From: Paracoccus sp. (in: a-proteobacteria)
Lineage (GTDB): Bacteria > Pseudomonadota > Alphaproteobacteria > Rhodobacterales > Rhodobacteraceae
Assembly: GCA_030538705.1 (NCBI GenBank)
Contig: JAUNTL010000026.1
Coordinates: 1 to 33,376, forward strand
Direction: 5' to 3'
Length of the DNA stretch: 33,376 nt
The notes under the pieces are model-generated. The model was not told the origin of the DNA, did not search any database, and was given only the letters and a program-made list of their open reading frames with translations. Shown here in pieces: positions 15,223 to 25,605 of the stretch (positions are counted from its first letter, which is position 1; every line of letters starts with the position of its first letter). A program made the translations under genes and the position numbers.

Positions 15223-16020
15223 TTACGGCGACGACAACGCGCGATGCGATACCAGTCCCGAATAGTCGCGATCAGTCGGTGGCACATGCTCGTACATCTT
15301 TTTCAGCGCCAGAAGGAACGCCGCCGTCTCCCGGTCAGGGCGTGATCCCAGACGCGTGACCAGATAAACAGGGATGCGGGCGGGCGGCTCATGGCCTTCG
15401 ATCTGCCAGAGCAATCCGCGGCGGACATCCTCGGCCACGACATGGATTGGCAAGGCGCCGACCCCGATGCCAGCGAGGATCATCCGGCGCACCTCATGCA
15501 GGCTCGATGAGGTGCCGCGATGACGGGCAGGCAGCCCGAGCCTTTCGCGCATATCGCGCACGCTGGCCAGTGAACCGCTGCGGGTTTCGGTCTGAACCCC
15601 GACCGAATCAAAGCCCTGCCATTCGTCGTAGCCGAGATCCCTGCGGCCAAAAGCGCGATGCCTGCGCCCGCAGAATATCGCGAAATGTTCGTGATACAAC
15701 GTCTGGCAATCCAGATCTCCGGGAATGGTCTGGATCAGACAGATGCCGGCTGTGGCGCGGTTCTGCCGGACCCAGGACAGGACGTTCTCGCTGGGCAGAA
15801 CCGGAAAGACGAAATCGACGCTGGGATGACTGGCAGCGAATTCGGCCAGCACCCTGTCCAGATGGGGTGACACGACATGGCTTGCCATCGCGAGCGTAAT
15901 GGTTCCCCGAATATCCTCGATCTCGCGCATGACCATGCCCGGCAAATCGGTGACGGCGCCGAATATTTGCAGACAACGCTCATACAACTGCCGCCCGGCT
16001 CTCGTGACCCGGAAACGGCG
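15223..16020 (-). pseudogene. LysR-family regulator lacking its DNA-binding N-terminus
   Basis: The frame encodes about 265 residues of a LysR-type regulator. The linker RRFRVTRAGRQLYERC leads into a complete effector-binding domain (GTITLAMASHVVSPHL near its start, GIGVGALPIHVV near its end). LysR proteins are about 300 residues and begin with a helix-turn-helix of about 60; that part is absent. The homology stops at about 16020, exactly where opposite-strand sequence resembling an IS5-family transposase begins, and a stop codon follows in frame at 16051-16053. The first usable codon is a TTG at 15987. Without the helix-turn-helix it should not bind DNA, so I call it a pseudogene. It may once have controlled a neighbouring gene set. 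Confidence 0.8.
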
Positions 16021-16342: not shown

Positions 16343-17056
16343 TCAAACATGCACTCTGATGCGAGACGCGGCCCATATCGAAGTGCTGACTTCGACAGGG
16401 ACGCCGCCCATGTCGACGTTTCTCCCTGTCAGCACCAGAATTGGGCTGCCCATCGGAATGCGCAGAAGATGCGCCTCGTCCCGCGTCGGGGCGCGGGCCG
16501 AGATGGCGGTATCGTTGCGTCGAAAATCAGCGATGCCAAGACGGCGGATCAGATCGCTGATTCCGCTGGCCAGCGCGAGGTGCTGAGGCAGGTCAGGGTA
16601 ACGCGCAACTGAAAAGGCATGATGCGCAATGCAAAGCGGATCCTTCCCGCCCCACCGCAGGATGCGAATATCATGAATTGCGGCACCGCGCGGCAAGGCG
16701 AGTGCCCGAATGATTTCGGGATCGCCACGTCGGATCTGTTGATGCAGCAATTCCATTCGCGTGGAGGAGGCAGATTTGCTGACATTCTCGCCATAGCGGG
16801 TGCGCGACTTGACGAAATAGTCGATCAACTTCCCGCTGACATAGGTTCCGCTGCCCTGTCGGGTTGAGACAACTCCCTGAATTTCCAGCATCTCTATGGC
16901 CGCGCGCACATTGTGCCGGCTTGCACCATATTCCGCGGACAGTGCTGCCTGTGTCGGAATCTGGTCACCCGTCCGCCATTCTCCGACCGCGATTCGGTGA
17001 CCAAGCGCGTCTCGTAAAGCAGCGGCGTTCATCGGGCTTGATGTCTTCCGATCCAT
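16343..17056 (-). CDS. GntR/HutC-family regulator with UTRA domain, PhnF-like
   Basis: 237 residues from the ATG at 17056, chosen because GGAGG sits 8 bases before it; a TTG at 17083 in frame has no such site. The N-terminus (about 8-75) is a winged helix of the GntR type (GDQIPTQAALSAEYGASRHNVRAAIEMLEIQGVV, then RQGSGTYV). Residues about 95-235 form a UTRA ligand-binding domain. This architecture is shared by HutC, FarR and PhnF. It is divergent from the phosphonate-type operon, and a 21-base palindrome lies just before its start, so it most likely represses itself and the operon until a pathway compound binds. The ligand is unknown; PhnF-like is inferred from context. Confidence 0.85.
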   Translation of the reverse strand: MDRKTSSPMNAAALRDALGHRIAVGEWRTGDQIPTQAALSAEYGASRHNVRAAIEMLEIQGVVSTRQGSGTYVSGKLIDYFVKSRTRYGENVSKSASSTRMELLHQQIRRGDPEIIRALALPRGAAIHDIRILRWGGKDPLCIAHHAFSVARYPDLPQHLALASGISDLIRRLGIADFRRNDTAISARAPTRDEAHLLRIPMGSPILVLTGRNVDMGGVPVEVSTSIWAASRIRVHV

Positions 17057-17077
17057 GAAACTTCCTCCGCCATTTTT

Positions 17078-17098
17078 CACCAAATATCAGATTTGGTG
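17078..17098. promoter_or_regulatory. Palindromic operator for the GntR-type regulator
   Basis: Perfect inverted repeat CACCAAAT-N5-ATTTGGTG in the divergent gap, 22 bases before the regulator's ATG and about 120 bases before the binding-protein gene. The flanks add partial symmetry (TT before, TGTGAA after). Its size and position fit an operator for a dimeric GntR protein acting on both directions. Binding has not been shown; the inference rests on symmetry and place. Confidence 0.7.
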
Positions 17099-17220
17099 TG
17101 AAGTAATTATGAAGAGTCGAAGTTCCCGACCACCGTGATCGGGGCCGTCATGGAACTGTCAAATGCGTGGACGATATGCCCGGAAGTCACTCCCCGCCGA
17201 CTTTCTCAAGGAGCTATCAC

Positions 17221-18744
17221 ATGATCGCCCGTAAACTTGCCCTCACGGCCTTGCTGGCCTGCTCTGCGCTGACTGTCCCGGCCACAGCCGAAGATCTGCG
17301 CGTTGCCTTGCCGACCTTTCCGTCAAAATTCGCCCCCAACTTTTGGGGCAATGACGGCGCACCGATGATTTATCAGGTCTATGAGACGCTGATCACCCGC
17401 GACCCATTTGCCCGGCCCCTGACCTATATTCCCGGCCTCGCAACCGAGTGGAAACAAATCGAACCGACGGTCTGGGAACTGAAGCTGCGCGATGGCGTCA
17501 TGCTGCATGACGGCACGACAATGGATGCTGATGATGTCAAATTCTCGCTCGATCCGATATTCAGCGGAACCAACCCTGAATATACTTCGGCTTGGGGCAC
17601 GTTTCACTACAACTTCGATCGTGTCGAAATCGTCGATCCGCTGACCATCCACATCCATACCAAACGCCCGGAACCCCTGTTCGAGGCACTGATGTCGCTT
17701 TCGACGGCCTCTATCACCTCAAAGGACTATTACGAGGCAAACGGTTATGATCAGGCATTGCTGCATCCGGTCGGGACTGGTCCTTATCGCGTGACCAATC
17801 TCGTGCCGGGTGAAGAAGCCAGGATGGAACGTTTTTCGGACTATTGGGGTGACGCTGCGCCCTTTGATCATCTGAGCTTCCGCAAGGTGCCGGAAGTCGC
17901 CTCGCGCATCACCGGGCTGGTAAACGGGGAATTCGATCTGGTCACCAACATTCCGCCCGATCAGGCCGGCGCGCTGGAACAGGACGGCATCCGCCAGCAG
18001 GGCGTGACATGGCCGATGTTCCACATCTGGGTTCTCAATCAGGTGGCCGAGCCGACGAAAGATCTGCGGGTGCGTCAGGCGATGCGTCTTTGCACCGACA
18101 ATCAGCAGCTGGTTGACGGGCTATGGGGTGGGCTGGCCCATGTGCCGAAGACGCACCAGTTCGAGGAATACGGTGAGCCGTATTACATGGCTGATATCGA
18201 CTATAGCGGTCGCGACGTTGAAAAGGCCAAGGCTCTGCTCGCTGAGGCGGGCTATAGCGGTGCCCCGATCGTGGCACAGTTTACCCAGAACTATTACCTC
18301 TACGGCGATCTGGCCGCGCAGGTGATCCAGCAGCAATGGCAGGAATGCGGCCTTAACCTGCAATTGCAGCAGGTGGAGAAGATCGACTACGAAAAGTCGA
18401 ACATCGTCGCCTGGTCAAACCCGATGTATTATCCTGATCCGATGGGTGCGATGGATGTGCATTGGTCGGGCAACAGCAATTATGCCCGCCGCGGCACCTG
18501 GAAACCCGCGCATCCCGACTGGGAAAAAACCTTCGATACCGCCCGCTTTGCTACCGATGTGGACGAGCGCCGCGAAGCCTATCGCCATCTGCTCGAGATT
18601 GATCAGGACGAGGCCGGCTGGATCCTGCTGTATGAACCGCATGAAATCTACGGCATGCGCGAAGATATCTCGTTCGATATTCCGGTGGCCTATCGTCCCT
18701 ATGTTCTGCCGCTGCGCGCAGGACAGATCACCATCGGCAAATAA
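17221..18744 (+). CDS. Family 5 (peptide-type) ABC transporter substrate-binding protein
   Basis: 507 residues from the ATG at 17221, preceded by AAGGAG with a 7-base spacer. An N-terminal signal peptide (MIARKLALTALLACSALTVPATA) has likely cleavage before EDLRV, with no lipobox cysteine, so the protein is soluble in the periplasm. It has the layout of the SBP_bac_5 family (DppA/OppA/NikA): YETLITRDPFARPLTYIPGLATEW near the start, LRDGVMLHDGTTMDADDVKFSL at about 90-115, and a C-terminal lobe. This family binds peptides, nickel chelates, opines and other solutes. Downstream genes point to a phosphonate-bearing solute, but the sequence alone does not show this. First gene of the operon; a strong hairpin follows it. 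Confidence 0.9.
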   Translation: MIARKLALTALLACSALTVPATAEDLRVALPTFPSKFAPNFWGNDGAPMIYQVYETLITRDPFARPLTYIPGLATEWKQIEPTVWELKLRDGVMLHDGTTMDADDVKFSLDPIFSGTNPEYTSAWGTFHYNFDRVEIVDPLTIHIHTKRPEPLFEALMSLSTASITSKDYYEANGYDQALLHPVGTGPYRVTNLVPGEEARMERFSDYWGDAAPFDHLSFRKVPEVASRITGLVNGEFDLVTNIPPDQAGALEQDGIRQQGVTWPMFHIWVLNQVAEPTKDLRVRQAMRLCTDNQQLVDGLWGGLAHVPKTHQFEEYGEPYYMADIDYSGRDVEKAKALLAEAGYSGAPIVAQFTQNYYLYGDLAAQVIQQQWQECGLNLQLQQVEKIDYEKSNIVAWSNPMYYPDPMGAMDVHWSGNSNYARRGTWKPAHPDWEKTFDTARFATDVDERREAYRHLLEIDQDEAGWILLYEPHEIYGMREDISFDIPVAYRPYVLPLRAGQITIGK

Positions 18745-18751
18745 GTCCTGT

Positions 18752-18774
18752 CGGGGCGGCGTTCTGCCGCCCCG
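18752..18774 (+). repeat. Strong hairpin between the binding-protein and permease genes
   Basis: Perfect 9-base arms CGGGGCGGC and GCCGCCCCG around GTTCT, starting 8 bases after the binding-protein stop. No T-run follows, so full termination is unlikely. Such hairpins commonly protect the upstream message or attenuate it, giving more binding protein than membrane components. Confidence 0.65.
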
Positions 18775-18800
18775 CACTCTCCCTGCCTGCGGATAATCCC

Positions 18801-19721
18801 ATGCTGATGTTTATGTCCACGCGCCTGCTGCGCGCACTGATTGCCCTGACGATGGTGCTTATCATTGCCTTCGTGACCGTGCGCTTTTCGGGAGAGCCGT
18901 TTGAACGGATGTTCCCCGAGGGCACCACGGTCGAGCATGAACAGATGCTGCGCAAGGAATGGAACACCGACCGTCCCATCCCGGAACAGTTCGCAATCTA
19001 TCTGGGCAAGCTGGCGACCGGCGAATTCGGGCAGTCGTTGTTCACGAAAGAGCCGGTTTGGCAGATCTATGCCGACCGAATGCCTGCAACGCTGGCTGTC
19101 GGAGGTCTCGCGCTTTTGCTGGCTATTCTGGTCGGCATTCCTCTGGGCGCGATTTCGGCGCTTTGGCGGCAAAGCGCGGCTGCGCGGGCGGCGATGTGGT
19201 TCGCTTTCCTCGGCTATGCCATCCCGCATTATGTGCTGGGGATCGGGCTGGTGCTGCTGCTTGGTTTTCAGTGGCGGATGCTGCCCACATCCGGGCTTGA
19301 TACGGCCGCGCATTACGTCTTGCCGGTGGTCACGCTGGCCATTCCCCTGATCGCGGCGCTTGCCCGCTATATGCGCGCCGCCATGCTGGACGTCATTGCC
19401 CAGCCGCATGTGATGACCGCGCTGACCAAAGGGATCGGAGAGCGGAGACTGGCTATCCGCCATATCCTGCGCAACGCCATGGTGCCGCTGCTGACCGTCC
19501 TGGGGCTGGAGATCGCTGGCCTCGTCAACGGCTCGATCTTTGTCGAGACGGTATTCTCGTTGCCCGGCGTAGGTCGGGTGCTGGTCGAATCCGTGCTGGA
19601 TCGTAACTATCCGGTGCTGCAATTCGGCGTTCTGGCCTATGCGCTGCTGATCGTTCTCATCACGCTGACCGTGGATCTTCTTTACACCTTTGCCGACCCC
19701 CGCGTTCGGCTGGAGGCCTGA
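18801..19721 (+). CDS. ABC transporter inner-membrane permease (DppB type)
   Basis: 306 residues with six predicted membrane helices. The first helix starts at about residue 8 and is followed by a large periplasmic segment, as in DppB/OppB. The coupling region includes IAQPHVMTALTKGIGERRLAIRHILRNAMVPLLT, the EAA-type loop of this family, and ETVFSLPGVGRVLVESVLDRNYPVLQ is also typical. ATGs at 18801, 18807 and 18813 are all possible starts; the ribosome site is weak. It forms the channel with the next permease, whose start lies 2 bases after its stop. Confidence 0.9.
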   Translation: MLMFMSTRLLRALIALTMVLIIAFVTVRFSGEPFERMFPEGTTVEHEQMLRKEWNTDRPIPEQFAIYLGKLATGEFGQSLFTKEPVWQIYADRMPATLAVGGLALLLAILVGIPLGAISALWRQSAAARAAMWFAFLGYAIPHYVLGIGLVLLLGFQWRMLPTSGLDTAAHYVLPVVTLAIPLIAALARYMRAAMLDVIAQPHVMTALTKGIGERRLAIRHILRNAMVPLLTVLGLEIAGLVNGSIFVETVFSLPGVGRVLVESVLDRNYPVLQFGVLAYALLIVLITLTVDLLYTFADPRVRLEA

Positions 19722-19723
19722 TC

Positions 19724-20590
19724 ATGGCGACAACCGACATTTCCCCGGTCATGTCACGGCGGCTGTTTCGCTGGGATCGCTTGACGCTGTCGCTCCTGTT
19801 GCTGGGGGTGATTCTGGGGCTGGGCCTTCTGGCTCCGGTGCTGGCGCCGAAAGATCCGAACGCGGTGGACATGCTGCGTCGCATGGCCCCCCCCGTCTGG
19901 ATGGAGGGTGGAAGCTGGCAGAACATTCTCGGCACCGATCAGATCGGCCGCGATCTTCTGTCACGCGTCATGTGGGGCACGCTGACCAGCTTTGGCATCG
20001 CCGTCTTTGGCCTGATCTTCAGTGCCGTTCTGGGCATCTCGCTTGGCGTTCTTTCCGGGTTGATCGGCGGCTGGTTCGACCGCGTCGCCATGACGCTGGT
20101 CGATGTCTTTATTACCCTGCCGAACCTGCTGCTGATCCTCTGCGGGATCGCTGTTCTCGGCAGCGAGGTCTGGGTTCTGATCTTGATGATCGGACTTGTC
20201 CGCTGGGAGGCCTATGCGAGGCTGGTGCGCGGACAGGTTCTGATGCTGCGTGAACTGGGTTATGTCGAGGCATCGCGCGTGCTGGGCGGCCGCCCGCTTT
20301 GGATCATCTGGCGCCATATCCTGCCCAACCTCATTTCTCCCCTCATGGTGATGCTGACGCTCAGTTTTCCCGGCGTTCTGCTGATGGAGGCGGGATTATC
20401 GTTCCTTGGCGTCGGCGTGCAGCCGCCGACCTCCTCACTGGGCCGGATGATCGGTGACGGGCGCAACTATCTGGTTGGCGCGCCATGGATCGCGCTGGTT
20501 CCTTCGGTGGTGGTGATCCTGATTACGCTGGCCTTTCAGATCGCAGGCGATGCGCTGCGTGACCGCATGGATGAGCTGAACAATGGATAA
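19724..20590 (+). CDS. ABC transporter inner-membrane permease (DppC type)
   Basis: 288 residues, six membrane helices. It has the DppC/OppC pattern: a short N-terminal cytoplasmic part, one helix, then the conserved LGTDQIGRDLLSRVMWGTLTS segment (residues about 66-86). The coupling loop is MLRELGYVEASRVLGGRPLWIIWRHILPNL. FPGVLLMEAGLSFLGVGVQPPTSSLGRMI near the C-terminus is nearly diagnostic for the family. The frame overlaps the next gene by 8 bases. It pairs with the upstream permease. Confidence 0.92.
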   Translation: MATTDISPVMSRRLFRWDRLTLSLLLLGVILGLGLLAPVLAPKDPNAVDMLRRMAPPVWMEGGSWQNILGTDQIGRDLLSRVMWGTLTSFGIAVFGLIFSAVLGISLGVLSGLIGGWFDRVAMTLVDVFITLPNLLLILCGIAVLGSEVWVLILMIGLVRWEAYARLVRGQVLMLRELGYVEASRVLGGRPLWIIWRHILPNLISPLMVMLTLSFPGVLLMEAGLSFLGVGVQPPTSSLGRMIGDGRNYLVGAPWIALVPSVVVILITLAFQIAGDALRDRMDELNNG

Positions 20591-21563
20591 TGCCCTTCTT
20601 GATATTGACGGCTTGAACGTGACATTCCGCACGGGGGCAGGCCCCTTGCACGCTGTGCGCGGTGCCAGTCTGAAACTGCGCCGGGGCGAAACGATTGCTT
20701 TGGTCGGCGAAAGCGGATCGGGCAAATCGACGCTGGCCAAGGCGCTGATCCGTGCGAACGAGGCCCCGTTTACCGCGGCCCGCGCGGAAATCACCGGGCG
20801 CGCAATTCTTGATGCCGGCGACGGTGCCCGCAATCTGGTCACACTTGACCGCCGGCAGATGAGGGCCGTCCGGGCACAGCAGATCGCAATGATCTCGCAG
20901 GATGCCTTGTCGGGATTGAACCCGGTTCTGACGATCGGCTGGCAGGTGGCCGAGGCCCTCGCCACCGCCAGCCCGCAATTGGATCGCCGCGCCCGCAAGG
21001 GAAAGACGGTGGCGCTTCTGGCCGAAGTGGGCCTGCCGACGCCCGCGGCTCTCATCCACCGTTACCCGCATCAGCTTTCGGGCGGTCAGCGCCAGCGCGT
21101 GATGATCGCCATGGCCGTCGCGCGCAACCCTGCGCTGCTGATCGCCGATGAACCGACGACCGCGCTGGATGTGACTGTGCAGGCCCGCATTCTGACGCTA
21201 TTGCGCGATTTGCAGGCCAGATCCGGTGTGGCGACCTTGTTCATCACCCATGATCTGGGCGTCGTCGCGCGGGTCGCGGACCGCGTGGCCGTAATGTATG
21301 CGGGAGAAATTGTCGAAGTCTCTCCGGTGGCTGATTTCCTGCGCCAGCCACGTCATCCTTATACGTCCGGGCTTCTCGCCTCTGTGCCCGGATCACAGCG
21401 CCAATATCCGCGGCTGAAAGGCTATGCGCCCGCGCCGGATGCCGTGCCCGAGGGGTGCGCTTTTCGCACGCGTTGCCCCATCGCCGGGCCGGCTTGCACC
21501 GCACCGCAGCCGATACAGGCCGCGGGCAACCGGCTGGTTCGCTGCTGGAGGGCCGCCGCATGA
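20583..21563 (+). CDS. ABC transporter ATPase (DppD/OppD type)
   Basis: 326 residues. Walker [10 protein letters not shown] (about 42-50), Q-loop region [12 protein letters not shown] (103-114), signature LSGGQRQRV (165-173), Walker B LLIADE (185-190) and the switch histidine in ITHDLG are all intact. The C-terminal part has the oligopeptide/dipeptide extension with cysteines in [16 protein letters not shown], often an Fe-S or metal site in this subfamily. It powers uptake through the two permeases. The start overlaps the upstream permease by 8 bases and the stop overlaps the next ATPase (ATGA). Confidence 0.93.
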
Positions 21564-22381
21564 GCATCGAAATCCGTAATCTGGGCCTGAGCTACGCCGC
21601 CGGGATTTTCGGTAAAGGCCGTGCCAATCGCGCGCTGGATGGGGTTAATCTGTCAATCCCGCGTGGCTGCACCATGGGGATCGTTGGTGAAAGCGGTTCG
21701 GGCAAGTCCACCCTGGGCCGGGTGCTGTTGCGCATTTTGCAACCCTGTGAGGGTCAGGTGCTGATCGAAGGTCAGGACCCATGGGCGCTGCCTTCGCGCG
21801 CGATGCCAGAGTTTCGCCGGTCCATTCAGGCGGTGTTTCAGGATTCAGGCGCCTCGCTTAACCCGCGTCAGAATATCGGTGCCACCATTCGGGAAGGTCT
21901 GGACATTCACGGCATCGGCACCCCCGCAAGCCGCAAGGATCGGGTGCCGGAACTTCTGGCGCAGGTCGGGTTGGAACCCGCCTATGCCGCCCGCATGCCA
22001 CATACCCTGTCTGGCGGGCAGCGCCAGCGGGTGAATATTGCCCGCGCGCTTGCGCTGCGTCCCCGCATTCTGGTCGCTGATGAGCCGGTCTCGGCTCTGG
22101 ACACGTCGGTCCAGTCTCAGGTGCTGGAACTTCTTGCCGATCTCAAGCGCGAGACAGGCATGACGATGATCTTCATCTCGCATGATCTGGCCGTGGTGCG
22201 CGAGATATGCGACCGCGTCGCAATCATGCATGGCGGCAAGCTTGTCGAAGAGGGCGAGATCAATCTCGTCTTCGATCATCCCTGCCATGCCGTGACCCGC
22301 GCGCTGATACGCGACATGCCACGGCTCGATCTGGTTCACCCGCAATATACCCATACCGATTTACTCGTGACATCTGGATAA
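21560..22381 (+). CDS. ABC transporter ATPase (DppF/OppF type)
   Basis: 273 residues from the ATG at 21560, overlapping the previous stop (ATGA); a longer frame from 21455 lies inside the first ATPase and is rejected. Walker [10 protein letters not shown] (43-51), signature SGGQRQRV (about 151-158) and Walker B ILVADE (170-175) are complete. It is shorter than classical OppF (about 320-330) and lacks the cysteine-containing C-terminal extension seen in its partner, ending soon after the CHAVTRALI region. Short versions of this kind occur in NikE and phosphonate PhnK relatives. It forms the ATPase heterodimer with the upstream protein. Confidence 0.92.
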   Translation: MSIEIRNLGLSYAAGIFGKGRANRALDGVNLSIPRGCTMGIVGESGSGKSTLGRVLLRILQPCEGQVLIEGQDPWALPSRAMPEFRRSIQAVFQDSGASLNPRQNIGATIREGLDIHGIGTPASRKDRVPELLAQVGLEPAYAARMPHTLSGGQRQRVNIARALALRPRILVADEPVSALDTSVQSQVLELLADLKRETGMTMIFISHDLAVVREICDRVAIMHGGKLVEEGEINLVFDHPCHAVTRALIRDMPRLDLVHPQYTHTDLLVTSG

Positions 22382-22385
22382 CACT

Positions 22386-23294
22386 ATGACTCTTGAAACT
22401 TTTCTGGCTCCAGGGCGCTTTTTCAAAGGCAACCTTCATACCCACTCGACCAGATCTGACGGCTTGCTGCCGCCCGAGGAAGTGTGTCGCCGCTATCACG
22501 AACAGGGCTACGATTTTATCTGCCTGTCGGACCATTTTACCGAAAAGTTCAGCTTTCCGATGACCGACACGACCGCGCTGCGCAATGATGGCTTCACCAC
22601 GATCATCGGTGCCGAGCTTCACGCCCCCACCACCGAACTCGGCTGTGTCTGGCATATTCTTGCAGTCGGCCTGCCGCTCGATTTTGCTCCCCTTGCGCCC
22701 GGCGAGACCGGCCCGGAAATCGCAGCCCGCGCCTATGAGGCAGGTGCTTTTGTCGTCATCCCTCATCCTGAATGGTATGGACTGACCACAAATGACGCTG
22801 CAACGATCCCCGATGCCCATGCCGTCGAGGTGTATAATCACACCAGTCAGGTTCATGTCGGTCGCGGCGGTGGCGTCTATTTCCTTGATCTGCTGCTGGC
22901 CGAGGGGCGGCGCGTCAATGCGCTGGCTTGCGATGACGCGCATTTCAACGTGTCCGGCGACCAGAACCGCGACGCGTTCGGCGGCTGGTGCATGGTCAAG
23001 GCCGCGGAAAACAGCCCCGAGGCGCTGCTCGTGGCACTGAAAGCCGGACATTATTATTCAAGCCAGGGCCCCGAAATCCACGATATCCGCCGCGAGGGTG
23101 ATGAACTGGTTGTCGAGACCTCGCCCGCCGATCACATCGTTCTGGCGGGTCAATGTGCCCTCTCAGCGCAAAGTTTCGGCAAGGGCATGACGTCATCGCG
23201 CCTGCCGCTTGACCGCTTTGCCGGGACGTGGGGCCGGGTCAGCGTGCTTGATGCCCATGGCCGATCAGCTTGGTCAAATCCGATCTGGTTCTGA
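22386..23294 (+). CDS. PHP-fold metallohydrolase (CehA/McbA-like), probable phosphonate or phosphate ester hydrolase
   Basis: 302 residues. PHP-domain metal ligands are all present: HTH at 18-20, Asp25, DH at 49-50, Glu77 in GAELH, His90, His127 in IPHPEW, and DDAH at 183-186. This is the pattern of trinuclear PHP phosphoesterases and of the CehA/McbA group. It starts 4 bases after the second ATPase and has no signal peptide, so it is cytoplasmic. Its place between an importer and phosphonatase suggests it trims the imported molecule, for example by cleaving an ester that carries a phosphonate. That is inference; the family includes phosphatases, carbamate hydrolases and polymerase-associated domains. 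Confidence 0.82.
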   Translation: MTLETFLAPGRFFKGNLHTHSTRSDGLLPPEEVCRRYHEQGYDFICLSDHFTEKFSFPMTDTTALRNDGFTTIIGAELHAPTTELGCVWHILAVGLPLDFAPLAPGETGPEIAARAYEAGAFVVIPHPEWYGLTTNDAATIPDAHAVEVYNHTSQVHVGRGGGVYFLDLLLAEGRRVNALACDDAHFNVSGDQNRDAFGGWCMVKAAENSPEALLVALKAGHYYSSQGPEIHDIRREGDELVVETSPADHIVLAGQCALSAQSFGKGMTSSRLPLDRFAGTWGRVSVLDAHGRSAWSNPIWF

Positions 23295-23321
23295 CTATTT
23301 CAACTCATCAGGAGAAAAAAC

Positions 23322-24152
23322 ATGAACATCCAACCTTCACCCGACTATCGCGGCCCCGTGACCACTGCCATTTTCGATTGGGCGGGCACCGTGATTGATT
23401 TTGGCTGCATCGCGCCAGTCGCCTCGTTTCAGGATGCTTTCGCCAAGGCGGGCGTCGAAATTACCGAAGCCGAGGCCCGCGGGCCGATGGGTGCCGCAAA
23501 ACGCGAACATGTCGAATTGATCCTGGGTGACACTGCCGTGCAGGCGCGCTGGCAGGATGCCAAGGGCAGACCCTCGGATCAGGCTGATGTCGATGCCCTT
23601 TACACCAGTTTTCTGACGGCCGACGCCGAGAATTGCGCCCGGTTCAGCGGCCTGATCCCCGGCGCAATTGAGGTGATCTCGGCATTGCGCGCCAAGGGCA
23701 TCGCCATCGGCTCGACGACAGGCTATCCGCGCAGCATCATGGACGGGTTGATGCCGCTGGCCGCGGCACAGGGCTATGTGCCCGACCACACCGTGACCGT
23801 AACCGAGGCCCGCCGCGGCCGACCCTATCCTGACATGGTGCTGGAAAATGCCCTTGTGCTGGGCGCGCCCGATATGCGCGCCTGCGTCGTCGTGGACGAC
23901 AGCCCGACCGGCCTTGTCTCGGCCCGCGCGGCAGGGATGTGGGCTGTGGGTATCATTGCCAGCGGCAACGAGGTCGGCCTGTCGCTTGACGAATGGAAGG
24001 CGCTGACCCCGGCTGAACAAGGCACGCGGCGGAGCGAAGCTGCGGATGTGCTGACCGCCAACGGCGCACATTACACCATCGACACCATCGCCGACCTGCT
24101 GCCGGTGATTGCCGAGATCGAGGCGCGGCTGCTCAAAGGAGACAGGCCATGA
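23322..24152 (+). CDS. phnX: PhnX, phosphonoacetaldehyde hydrolase (phosphonatase)
   Basis: 276 residues, HAD superfamily. It cleaves the C-P bond of phosphonoacetaldehyde to acetaldehyde and phosphate. The nucleophile is Asp19 in FDWAGTVID. The Schiff-base lysine is Lys60 in PMGAAKREHV, 41 residues later, the same spacing as Asp12/Lys53 of Bacillus cereus PhnX; this lysine separates phosphonatase from other HAD enzymes. GSTTGYPRSIM (130-140) and GRPYPDM are also typical, and the magnesium-binding Asp pair lies in VVVDDSPTG. AGGAG precedes the ATG. The usual partner PhnW, which makes phosphonoacetaldehyde from 2-aminoethylphosphonate, is absent. The stop overlaps the dehydrogenase start. Confidence 0.92.
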   Translation: MNIQPSPDYRGPVTTAIFDWAGTVIDFGCIAPVASFQDAFAKAGVEITEAEARGPMGAAKREHVELILGDTAVQARWQDAKGRPSDQADVDALYTSFLTADAENCARFSGLIPGAIEVISALRAKGIAIGSTTGYPRSIMDGLMPLAAAQGYVPDHTVTVTEARRGRPYPDMVLENALVLGAPDMRACVVVDDSPTGLVSARAAGMWAVGIIASGNEVGLSLDEWKALTPAEQGTRRSEAADVLTANGAHYTIDTIADLLPVIAEIEARLLKGDRP

Positions 24153-25258
24153 GCAGCTGGACATACACCAACCCCGTGAAACTGCGTTTTGGCGCAGGTG
24201 TCATCGGCGAAATCGGCAGCTTCGTTGCAGGGCGTCCCTATCTGCTGGTGACCCACCCCGATGCGCCGATGGCGCAGTGGCGCGATCAGATCGTTGCCCG
24301 TGCCGGCGCTCCGCTTGCGGTTGTGGATGAGATCGAGCCGAACCCCTCGCTGAACATGCTGGAACGGATATGCGCCCGACTTGGGACCGAAGGTCATCGG
24401 CCGGCGTTGATTGTCGCGCTTGGCGGCGGCTCGGTGATCGACAGCGCCAAATTTCTGGCGGCGGGGCACGGTGCCTATGCTCCGGTCCATGCGCTGCTGG
24501 ATCAGGGGCTGGAACTCTCCAGACCTTCGCTACCCCTGATCGCGGTGCCCACGACAACTGGCACCGGCAGCGACCTGACCAAATGGGCCACGATCTGGGA
24601 CACCGGCAAAGGGCGTAAGCTATCGCTGAACCGTGACGATCTTTATGCCGAGGTCGCGCTTGTCGATCCCGACCTGACCACAAGCCTTCCGTGGACGCTG
24701 ACACTCACCACGGGTCTTGATGCATTGTCGCACAGCCTTGAAAGTCTGTGGAACCGCAATGCCAATCCCATCAGCCGGGGCCACGCGGTGCTTGCAACTC
24801 GCGATATCATGGCGGCGCTTCCGCGACTTCAGGCCGATCTGTCTGATCGTGCGGCGCGCCGGCTGCTGGCTATGGGCGCAACGCGCGCCGGTCTGGCGTT
24901 TTCCAACACTCAGACCGCACTGGCCCACAACATTTCCTATCCGCTGACGCTTCGTCATGGGGTGGTTCACGGCATCGCCTGTTCCTTCTGCCTGCCCGAA
25001 GTGATGCAGACGGCGCTGAACGTTGATGCGGATTGCGATCGAGCGCTCGAACAAATCTTCGGCGATATTGTCTCGGCACCGCAAAGGTTACGCACTTTTC
25101 TGAACGGGCTGGGTGTCCCCTCCGCCGCGTCAGAATTCGGTGCGGGCGATGCGGAATGGCACGATATCGTCACAGAAGCCTTTAGCGGTCCGCGCGGGCG
25201 CAATTTTATCGGGCATCTGCAGAAGTTTCCGATGCAAAAAATGACTGTGTCAGCTTAG
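24149..25258 (+). CDS. Iron-containing alcohol dehydrogenase, phosphonate-associated (phosphonoacetaldehyde/hydroxyethylphosphonate type)
   Basis: 369 residues, group III alcohol dehydrogenase. The nucleotide motif GGGSVID is at 92-98, and PTTTGTGSD at 134-142. Metal ligands are Asp191, His195, His260 and His274, in the normal spacing. An iron-dependent ADH subfamily is known to sit in phosphonate operons and includes phosphonoacetaldehyde reductases. The ATGA overlap with phnX ties it to that substrate. It could oxidise 2-hydroxyethylphosphonate to feed PhnX, or work in reverse to detoxify the aldehyde; in a catabolic operon the oxidative direction fits better. It is the last gene of the operon and a hairpin follows. 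Confidence 0.85.
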   Translation: MSSWTYTNPVKLRFGAGVIGEIGSFVAGRPYLLVTHPDAPMAQWRDQIVARAGAPLAVVDEIEPNPSLNMLERICARLGTEGHRPALIVALGGGSVIDSAKFLAAGHGAYAPVHALLDQGLELSRPSLPLIAVPTTTGTGSDLTKWATIWDTGKGRKLSLNRDDLYAEVALVDPDLTTSLPWTLTLTTGLDALSHSLESLWNRNANPISRGHAVLATRDIMAALPRLQADLSDRAARRLLAMGATRAGLAFSNTQTALAHNISYPLTLRHGVVHGIACSFCLPEVMQTALNVDADCDRALEQIFGDIVSAPQRLRTFLNGLGVPSAASEFGAGDAEWHDIVTEAFSGPRGRNFIGHLQKFPMQKMTVSA

Positions 25259-25515: not shown

Positions 25516-25605
25516 TGGCGGACGGTGAGGGATTCGAACCCTCGAGACGGTTCCCCGCCTACACACTTTCCAGGCGTGCGCCTTCGACCACTCGGCCAAC
25601 CGTCC
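25516..25605 (-). tRNA. tRNA-Ser (anticodon GGA)
   Basis: A complete 90-base tRNA including an encoded CCA (25516-25518). The acceptor stem is GGACGGT paired with ACCGTCC, discriminator G. The T-arm is GAGGG-TTCGAAT-CCCTC, the anticodon loop reads CTGGAAA with anticodon GGA, and there is a long variable arm as expected for serine (class II). It decodes UCC and UCU. Its 3' end faces the accessory module on the left, a common arrangement at island borders. No second copy of its 3' end is seen in the window. Confidence 0.95.

Follow-up and report, generated by a model that had tools for sequence, protein, structure and literature searches.

Organization of the operon

We describe here a phosphonate operon in a draft genome of Paracoccus sp. 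(Rhodobacteraceae), situated within a contig of 33,376 nucleotides (NCBI GenBank assembly GCA_030538705.1, contig JAUNTL010000026.1; C130 in our numbering, and referred to throughout as the window). The assembly is 3.4 Mb in 205 contigs and is 86.63% complete. Open reading frames, family models and Pfam domains identify a regulator of the PhnF type, divergent from eight tightly packed genes that share one direction, with gaps from the binding-protein gene through to psrA of 56, 2, -8, -4, 4, 27 and -4 bp. The initial annotation had proposed an operon packed behind a single GntR/UTRA regulator, and this is borne out by the presence of all of the genes it named, by gaps of -8 to +56 bp and by the family scores. 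Judged from its sequence, the whole is somewhat better explained than not as a regulated operon for scavenging phosphonate esters, working without the PhnW transaminase.

The regulator gene lies on the reverse strand (16,343–17,083) and its product matches TIGR02325 at 165.1 bits (cut-off 156.8) as well as the Pfam GntR and UTRA domains; an alternative ATG start at 17,056, with GGAGGA in front of it, is possible. Between the regulator and the operon is a putative operator palindrome, CACCAAATATCAGATTTGGTG (17,078–17,098, belonging to neither strand), with 10-base arms and one mismatch. Similar inverted repeats occupy the equivalent position at two related loci, L043 (CACCAAATCGGCGATTTGGCG, found by script) and L044 (CACCAACCCGACGATTTGGTG, seen by eye and outside the limits of the script), and a variant, TCGCCCAAT...ATTGGGCG, lies upstream at L072 and L077. 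The window palindrome is the sole site in this genome that fits its pattern with no mismatch, and a whole-genome search gave no convincing further operator, with four other sites at two mismatches compared with two for a reversed control. The PhnF-type regulator may control the operon through this upstream palindrome.

The eight genes are all on the forward strand. The first encodes an AccA-like solute-binding protein (SBP_bac_5 in Pfam; 17,221–18,744) with a signal-like N terminus and a best start at ATG 17,221. It is followed by two ATP-binding cassette (ABC) permeases with BPD_transp_1 domains, which family models place as Opp/Dpp/Nik B-like (18,801–19,721) and C-like (19,724–20,590), and by two ATPases with ABC_tran domains, the first with an oligo_HPY C-terminal region and matches to family models (20,583–21,563), and the second starting at ATG 21,560 rather than at GTG 21,455 of a longer open reading frame (21,560–22,381). 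The remaining three products are a PHP-domain hydrolase of the CehA/McbA family, putatively a phosphonate-ester hydrolase (22,386–23,294; NF038032, 90 bits, cut-off 80), the phosphonoacetaldehyde hydrolase PhnX (23,322–24,152; TIGR01422, 312.3 bits, cut-off 220), and an iron-containing alcohol dehydrogenase (Fe-ADH) that we propose to be a 2-hydroxyethylphosphonate (HEP) dehydrogenase (24,149–25,258), whose gene overlaps phnX by 4 bp. We refer to this last protein as PsrA, the name used by NCBI for the Phn_Fe-ADH model TIGR03405. It passes the cut-off of that model by a narrow margin (430 vs 423.7 bits), and among the same-genus genomes compared this is the only one in which the cut-off is exceeded. 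Residues D191, H195, H260 and H274 are invariant in an alignment of six proteins, and presumably are the Fe-ADH metal ligands.

PsrA and phosphonoacetaldehyde

A PsrA profile scan of a genome collection gave at least 596 pattern matches and at least 555 confirmed relatives, the best 80 of which constitute our psrA locus set; genes at these loci were recognized by tblastn to reference proteins, and many of the loci end at contig ends. Twenty of the 80 contain phnX, another 20 contain phnA together with phnY, and none contains both. Of the 20 phnX loci, 14 have the phnX and psrA matches less than 60 bp apart, and the phnX partners are scattered over several separate parts of the psrA tree (49 rows). 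PhnW is encoded at four of the 80 loci, and 28 encode a PhnD whose identity to the reference is 50% or higher. PhnX and PhnY share the substrate phosphonoacetaldehyde, with acetaldehyde and acetate as the respective end products of their routes (PMC12366243). Because phnX and phnA-phnY are alternative consumers of this compound that never occur together in the 80 loci, phosphonoacetaldehyde is probably the product of PsrA.

The distribution of other phosphonoacetaldehyde sources points the same way. The prediction that the operon lacks phnW holds, and it extends to the genome, where TIGR02326 finds no match at E ≤ 0.001 in the 86.6% of it that is assembled (the same profile gives sub-cut-off matches in all 14 control genomes); in this incomplete assembly there is consequently no second-site phnW that could be co-regulated with the operon, the circumstance named beforehand as telling against the proposal. 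Phosphoenolpyruvate (PEP) mutase is also not found over its cut-off in this genome (best match 135 bits vs 319.55), and PhnJ of the carbon-phosphorus (C-P) lyase pathway has no match in the draft. The expected absence of PhnCDE is correct for the operon but not for the genome: another contig (C115) carries genes for a PhnD-like protein, an ABC ATPase and two PhnE proteins.

Whether phnW is missing elsewhere has a divided answer. A PhnW search covering 48 of the 80 psrA loci, two plasmid loci and four genomes (53 genomes or records) found it over the cut-off in 34 and not in the other 19. Seventeen of these 19 were searched for PEP mutase (leaving out G432, with 328 bits, and plasmid record W01), and none has a match over the cut-off, the score in G393 reaching 251 bits vs 319.55. 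There are thus 17 genomes, this one included, in which psrA shares a locus with phnX or phnA-phnY and neither PhnW nor PEP mutase is over its cut-off. The partner is phnX in 12 of them (within 60 bp in 11, and 1.3 kb away in L100) and phnA-phnY in five, and PhnJ is also absent in 12 of the 17. With two known sources of phosphonoacetaldehyde missing from these genomes, PsrA is therefore the obvious one remaining.

A PsrA relative is also present in a biosynthetic setting. In genome G087, genes for PEP mutase (394.8 bits, cut-off 319.55), phosphonopyruvate decarboxylase (479.8 bits, cut-off 312.5) and a PsrA-like Fe-ADH lie in a row, and the last occupies the position of the phosphonoacetaldehyde reductase. 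Its product is on a long branch, scores 311.1 bits, below the 423.7 of the model, and is 42% identical to the window PsrA by tblastn. The Fe-ADHs encoded by phpC and fomC are named as HEP dehydrogenase or phosphonoacetaldehyde reductase (PMC5125639). PhpC and FomC (HEPD, cd08182) share with PsrA the Fe-ADH superfamily and, in the opposite direction, the proposed substrate pair; they differ in that the window PsrA is beside a C-P cleaving enzyme in a genome with no PEP mutase over the cut-off, and the cd08182 model is not one of those returned by the libraries searched. At L133 (8,944–12,955), the PEP mutase carries a fused cytidylyltransferase-like domain and is encoded in a row with a phosphonopyruvate decarboxylase and a PsrA-like Fe-ADH, likely a HEP biosynthesis set.

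The suggestion that the Fe-ADH makes phosphonoacetaldehyde is thus supported by the exclusive pairing with phnX or phnA-phnY, by the 17 genomes and by the G087 trio, and the assignment of PsrA in this operon as a HEP dehydrogenase is well supported by gene context; we are fairly confident of it. Two other roles were considered. PsrA could act in reverse, with aminoethylphosphonate (AEP) converted by PhnW to phosphonoacetaldehyde and then to HEP, so that the cluster repurposes AEP. Such a conversion by PhnW and PhpC has been proposed for phpC, which was already noted in catabolic operons and of which 53% of the genomes lack pepM (PMC9381506), and it is in keeping with the reversibility, in principle, of the Fe-ADH reaction, with the presence of a PsrA-like gene in a biosynthetic-type trio and with PhnW in 34 of the 53 genomes or records. 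However, PhnX or PhnY would drain the phosphonoacetaldehyde, and the 17 genomes in which PhnW and PEP mutase are not over their cut-offs have, for that reason, no tested source of phosphonoacetaldehyde to reduce. We reject HEP synthesis from AEP for those 17 genomes and consider it very unlikely as the general explanation.

The other role is disposal of the acetaldehyde released by PhnX, with PsrA reducing it to ethanol and phosphonoacetaldehyde coming from elsewhere. Fe-ADHs commonly reduce acetaldehyde, and the 4 bp overlap of phnX and psrA would suit such a coupling, but the 20 psrA loci that have phnA and phnY without phnX encode a route that yields acetate. We therefore reject acetaldehyde disposal as the main role of PsrA, and consider it highly improbable here.

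Several observations speak against PsrA as the HEP dehydrogenase of a PhnW-independent route, and oxidation of HEP by PsrA has to be weighed with them. Four Paraburkholderia/Burkholderia genomes with phnX-psrA (L053–L056) have PhnW elsewhere. Sixteen of the 80 psrA loci have none of PhnX, PhnA, PhnY and PhnD, some of these being short contigs, and no phosphonate enzyme was recognized among 10 neighbouring proteins from five of the 16. The absence of PhnW from the Paracoccus genome could be an assembly gap, given its 86.6% completeness, and PbfA-D, which are other sources of phosphonoacetaldehyde, lie outside the searches behind the count of 17. As a separate observation, five Burkholderia psrA loci (L057–L061) have a LysR gene and no recognized phosphonate gene nearby, with three neighbours scanned at L059.

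Gene order at related loci

A search for the eight-gene order in other genomes, as the initial annotation had recommended, finds it at L044, a Hyphomicrobiales metagenome-assembled genome with the identical order PhnF / binding protein-permease-permease-ATPase-ATPase-PHP-PhnX-PsrA. Devosia nitrariae (L043) has the shorter arrangement PhnF / PHP-PhnX-PsrA, with a PsrA 69% identical to that of the window. The PsrA of Sphingomonas kyeonggiensis, which has the phnX-psrA pair and lacks PhnW over the cut-off, is 60% identical. In L072, L077 and the Ensifer plasmid L037, the importer, PHP, a LysR gene and psrA are found with phnA-phnY in place of phnX, and the Agrobacterium plasmid L036 carries phnX, psrA, the importer and PHP. 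The loci L045–L056 have PhnX-PsrA without a close PHP (at least 45% identity) or a family-5 importer, although L049 has a PHP of 29%; their hosts are Sphingomonas, Methylocapsa, Sandaracinobacter, Sphingobium SYK-6, an actinobacterial assembly, Luteibacter and Paraburkholderia/Burkholderia. These are 12 of the 14 loci closest in psrA, and they count against the proposed pathway.

The binding protein and importer

The closest solved chains to the window binding protein are those of AccA, the agrocinopine-binding protein and a receptor for sugar phosphodiesters, at 217 bits, with the next other protein at 131.5. Foldseek ranks 1–11 for the predicted structure are all AccA; the model has a mean predicted local distance difference test (pLDDT) score of 64.6 and low-confidence stretches that include residues 1–51 and 399–407, and it was used for overall fold matches alone. 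Identity to AccA is 28–29% overall. The AccA phosphate contacts are Asn54, Ser419, Tyr375 and Tyr376, with other side chains surrounding the pyranose-2-phosphate (PMC4526662), and in an alignment of 16 proteins all four are identical in the window protein (N44, S399, Y358 and Y359 respectively). The same positions read N/S/Y/Y in L159 as in the window, and S/S/Y/Y in L040. Of the 12 other family-5 proteins aligned, among them E. coli NikA, DppA, GsiB and OppA and the binding proteins encoded at L044, L036 and L037, not one has the full set, although isolated matches are seen in DppA, GsiB and L094. A chance match at four of four positions would, on this alignment, be uncommon but not impossible at such identity. 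Beyond the phosphate the pockets diverge, with AccA residues N284, W178, W423, Y145, M372, T430 and E434 all different in the window protein and W418 and N420 kept; Glu504 and Glu510 of AccA could not be mapped onto it. We note also that Asn54 and Ser419 contact the sugar in AccA.

If the ABC system were a common peptide or nickel importer lying next to phnX-psrA by chance, the matches of its components to Opp/Dpp/Nik models would be accounted for, although the permeases, ATPases and binding protein are all below the cut-off of every such model among the matches listed. Against it are the wide margin by which AccA is closest, the lack of the contact set in the four E. coli proteins named above, and the recurrent association of PHP and family-5 importers with phosphonate genes. 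We reject this possibility because of the AccA relation and the contact residues, and regard it as extremely unlikely. The description of the importer as peptide-type in the initial annotation thus stands at the level of the superfamily only, with the binding protein nearest to AccA. Its proposal that a phosphonate ester is imported gains from the AccA-like protein with its phosphate contacts and from the importer and PHP among C-P lyase genes (see below), but the side group of the ester is only inferred.

Uptake of a common phosphonate ester sits less easily with L044, L036 and L037, whose binding proteins are only about 20% identical to that of the window and lack the AccA contacts. Different binding proteins therefore serve the same gene set, and to judge from their sequences they may have unlike ligands.

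The PHP hydrolase

By eye, no signal peptide is apparent at the PHP N terminus. Eight residues that we take to be of metal-ligand type (H18, H20, D25, H50, E77, H127, D184 and H186) do not vary among 23 relatives, and a single clade with support of 97/97 unites the seven psrA-linked PHP proteins. The best fold matches of the predicted structure (mean pLDDT 73.9), which again served for overall fold comparison only, are PHP-family predicted or known metal-dependent phosphoesterases, with TM-scores of 0.4–0.6.

The pairing of PHP with a family-5 importer recurs in four phosphonate settings. It accompanies PhnX and PsrA in the window, L044 and L036, and PsrA-PhnA-PhnY in L037, L072 and L077; in L159 it is found among C-P lyase genes, and in L040 it follows phnF in the vicinity of PEP mutase. 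L159 (38–13,546) is from a 1.6 Mb genome of 30% GC and of the same class as the window. Its PHP gene, at the contig edge, is followed by genes for a permease, a second permease, the AccA-like protein, an ATPase, an EamA protein and a calcineurin phosphoesterase, and then without large gaps by those for PhnG, PhnH, PhnI, PhnJ, PhnK, a 231-residue unscanned product and PhnM. In L040 (5,709–20,842, on a plasmid of R. leguminosarum Vaf10), phnF, the AccA-like importer and PHP are near PEP mutase, as are cytidylyltransferase and CDP-alcohol phosphatidyltransferase genes, and this is possibly a phosphonolipid cluster. Haematobacter pOT1-5 has an ABC importer of another type with PHP, and a Tn3 transposase between these and C-P lyase genes. 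A second PHP relative in the Paracoccus genome (55%; C131, 22,514–23,425, corresponding to L158 9,503–10,426) follows the genes of an ABC importer that includes an SBP_bac_6 protein and an ATPase resembling PhnT2 (417.9 bits, cut-off 457.7), a set resembling that near the C-P lyase genes in Haematobacter.

Not all of the evidence favors a phosphonate ester as the PHP substrate. In a sample of the class, 12 of 385 genomes, the Paracoccus genome included, have PHP relatives at E ≤ 1e-30, and most of the neighbourhoods mapped for them show no gene of the phosphonate reference set, two of them holding sugar-type or amidohydrolase/PhyH genes. Relatives of 44–59% identity also occur where no phosphonate gene was seen, among them plasmids of Streptomyces, Verrucosispora and Haladaptatus with incomplete gene tables, and CehA and McbA themselves hydrolyse carbamates (PMC8292978). 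Because of these relatives outside phosphonate loci and the carbamate activity of CehA/McbA, the substrate of PHP may be something other than a phosphonate ester, and we put cleavage of such an ester at an even chance.

The main alternative keeps PsrA and PhnX as described, but has PHP attack a bond of carboxyl, carbamoyl or lactone type on the phosphonate's carbon side, with an acylated phosphonate or other conjugate as the cargo. It draws on the carbamate hydrolysis already mentioned (PMC8292978) and on the one relative in a sugar-type cluster. We think it unlikely, albeit a serious candidate, in view of the nearest folds, which are predicted or known PHP metal-dependent phosphoesterases (with modest TM-scores), of the separate clade formed by the psrA-linked proteins, and of an AccA-like pocket that keeps the phosphate contacts, the seven other listed side chains being different.

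Flanking sequences

A tRNA-Ser (GGA) gene (25,516–25,605) lies approximately 257 bp beyond psrA, and the GC content of the window drops from about 70% at 10–13 kb to 57–58% at 16–19 kb; the proximity to the tRNA gene and the drop in GC indicate that the operon may be an acquired segment. On the other side of the operon, a LysR-type open reading frame of 254 residues (15,223–15,987) has the substrate-binding domain only; the DNA-binding portion may be absent or lie in a different frame.

Discussion

The nature of the genes suggests a four-step pathway. The AccA-like binding protein and ABC importer would take up a small phosphonate monoester, as the binding-site homology suggests, with the simplest cargo being an ester of HEP with a sugar, glycerol or a similar alcohol. 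The PHP enzyme, from its family and metal-site residues, would hydrolyse this ester in the cytoplasm to free HEP, and PsrA would oxidise HEP to phosphonoacetaldehyde with NAD(P)+, a step suggested by the pairing with its consumers and by the genomes in which PhnW and PEP mutase were not found. PhnX would then cleave the C-P bond to give acetaldehyde and phosphate, which is the established chemistry of its family. A marine-polysaccharide ester is a possible source of the cargo; HEP esters are reported to form part of marine high-molecular-weight organic matter (PMC5649143).

This arrangement has elements in common with several known systems. It shares with the PhnWX phosphonatase pathway the cleavage of phosphonoacetaldehyde by PhnX to acetaldehyde and phosphate, but there is no PhnW match in the operon or draft genome, an Fe-ADH replaces the transaminase, and the operon has a different importer and the additional PHP hydrolase. 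With the agrocinopine acc system, in which a phosphodiester is imported and then cut internally, it has in common the closest solved binding protein; it differs in having PHP instead of AccF (a Pfam scan of the nine proteins of the operon found no AccF-type phosphodiesterase domain), in the phosphonate enzymes downstream, and in the seven other AccA pocket side chains. Use of HEP and its polysaccharide esters by C-P lyase (PMC5649143) involves the same candidate substrates, but it releases ethylene, whereas the route proposed here would release acetaldehyde without C-P lyase. The Pbf accessory enzymes likewise convert other phosphonates to phosphonoacetaldehyde, although they are a lyase, FAD oxidoreductases and a racemase and not Fe-ADHs (PMC12366243, PMC10590968). 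FAD oxidoreductase genes also occur in clusters with phnX and without phnW (PMC10590968), and PbfF, the one candidate tested in PMC12366243, does not oxidise HEP according to that paper. An enzyme that opens HEP esters is only postulated in PMC5649143, which points to enzymes resembling alkaline phosphatase and names a PhoD-like one and a phosphonate monoester hydrolase.

In the open-licence literature we found no published description of the importer and PHP module or of a catabolic HEP dehydrogenase, and none of PsrA in connection with phosphonate and alcohol dehydrogenase. The mutual exclusion of PhnX and PhnYA, the genomes in which neither PhnW nor PEP mutase exceeds its cut-off, the AccA-like importer with its phosphate contacts kept, and the importer and PHP pair held in common with C-P lyase all appear to be new. 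More tentatively, we propose a catabolic route for HEP and its esters in which a portable module of importer and cytoplasmic PHP esterase supplies HEP to PsrA as a dedicated HEP dehydrogenase, with PhnX or PhnY-PhnA acting next, while in other bacteria a module of this kind feeds C-P lyase. Bacteria with this route would perhaps lack PhnW and often C-P lyase, and would have an importer that is AccA-like or of another family-5 type, a generalization that we hold to be possible but somewhat less likely than not.

If this is correct, then the operon offers a defined candidate for HEP-ester uptake and hydrolysis together with a catabolic HEP dehydrogenase, and a HEP route that ends in acetaldehyde or acetate and not ethylene. 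It would also provide an alternative to the AEP-to-HEP interpretation in PMC9381506 for phpC-like genes outside of biosynthetic clusters. Finally, the presence of phnX or phnYA would be no proof of aminoethylphosphonate use, which would matter for gene surveys that read these genes in that way.

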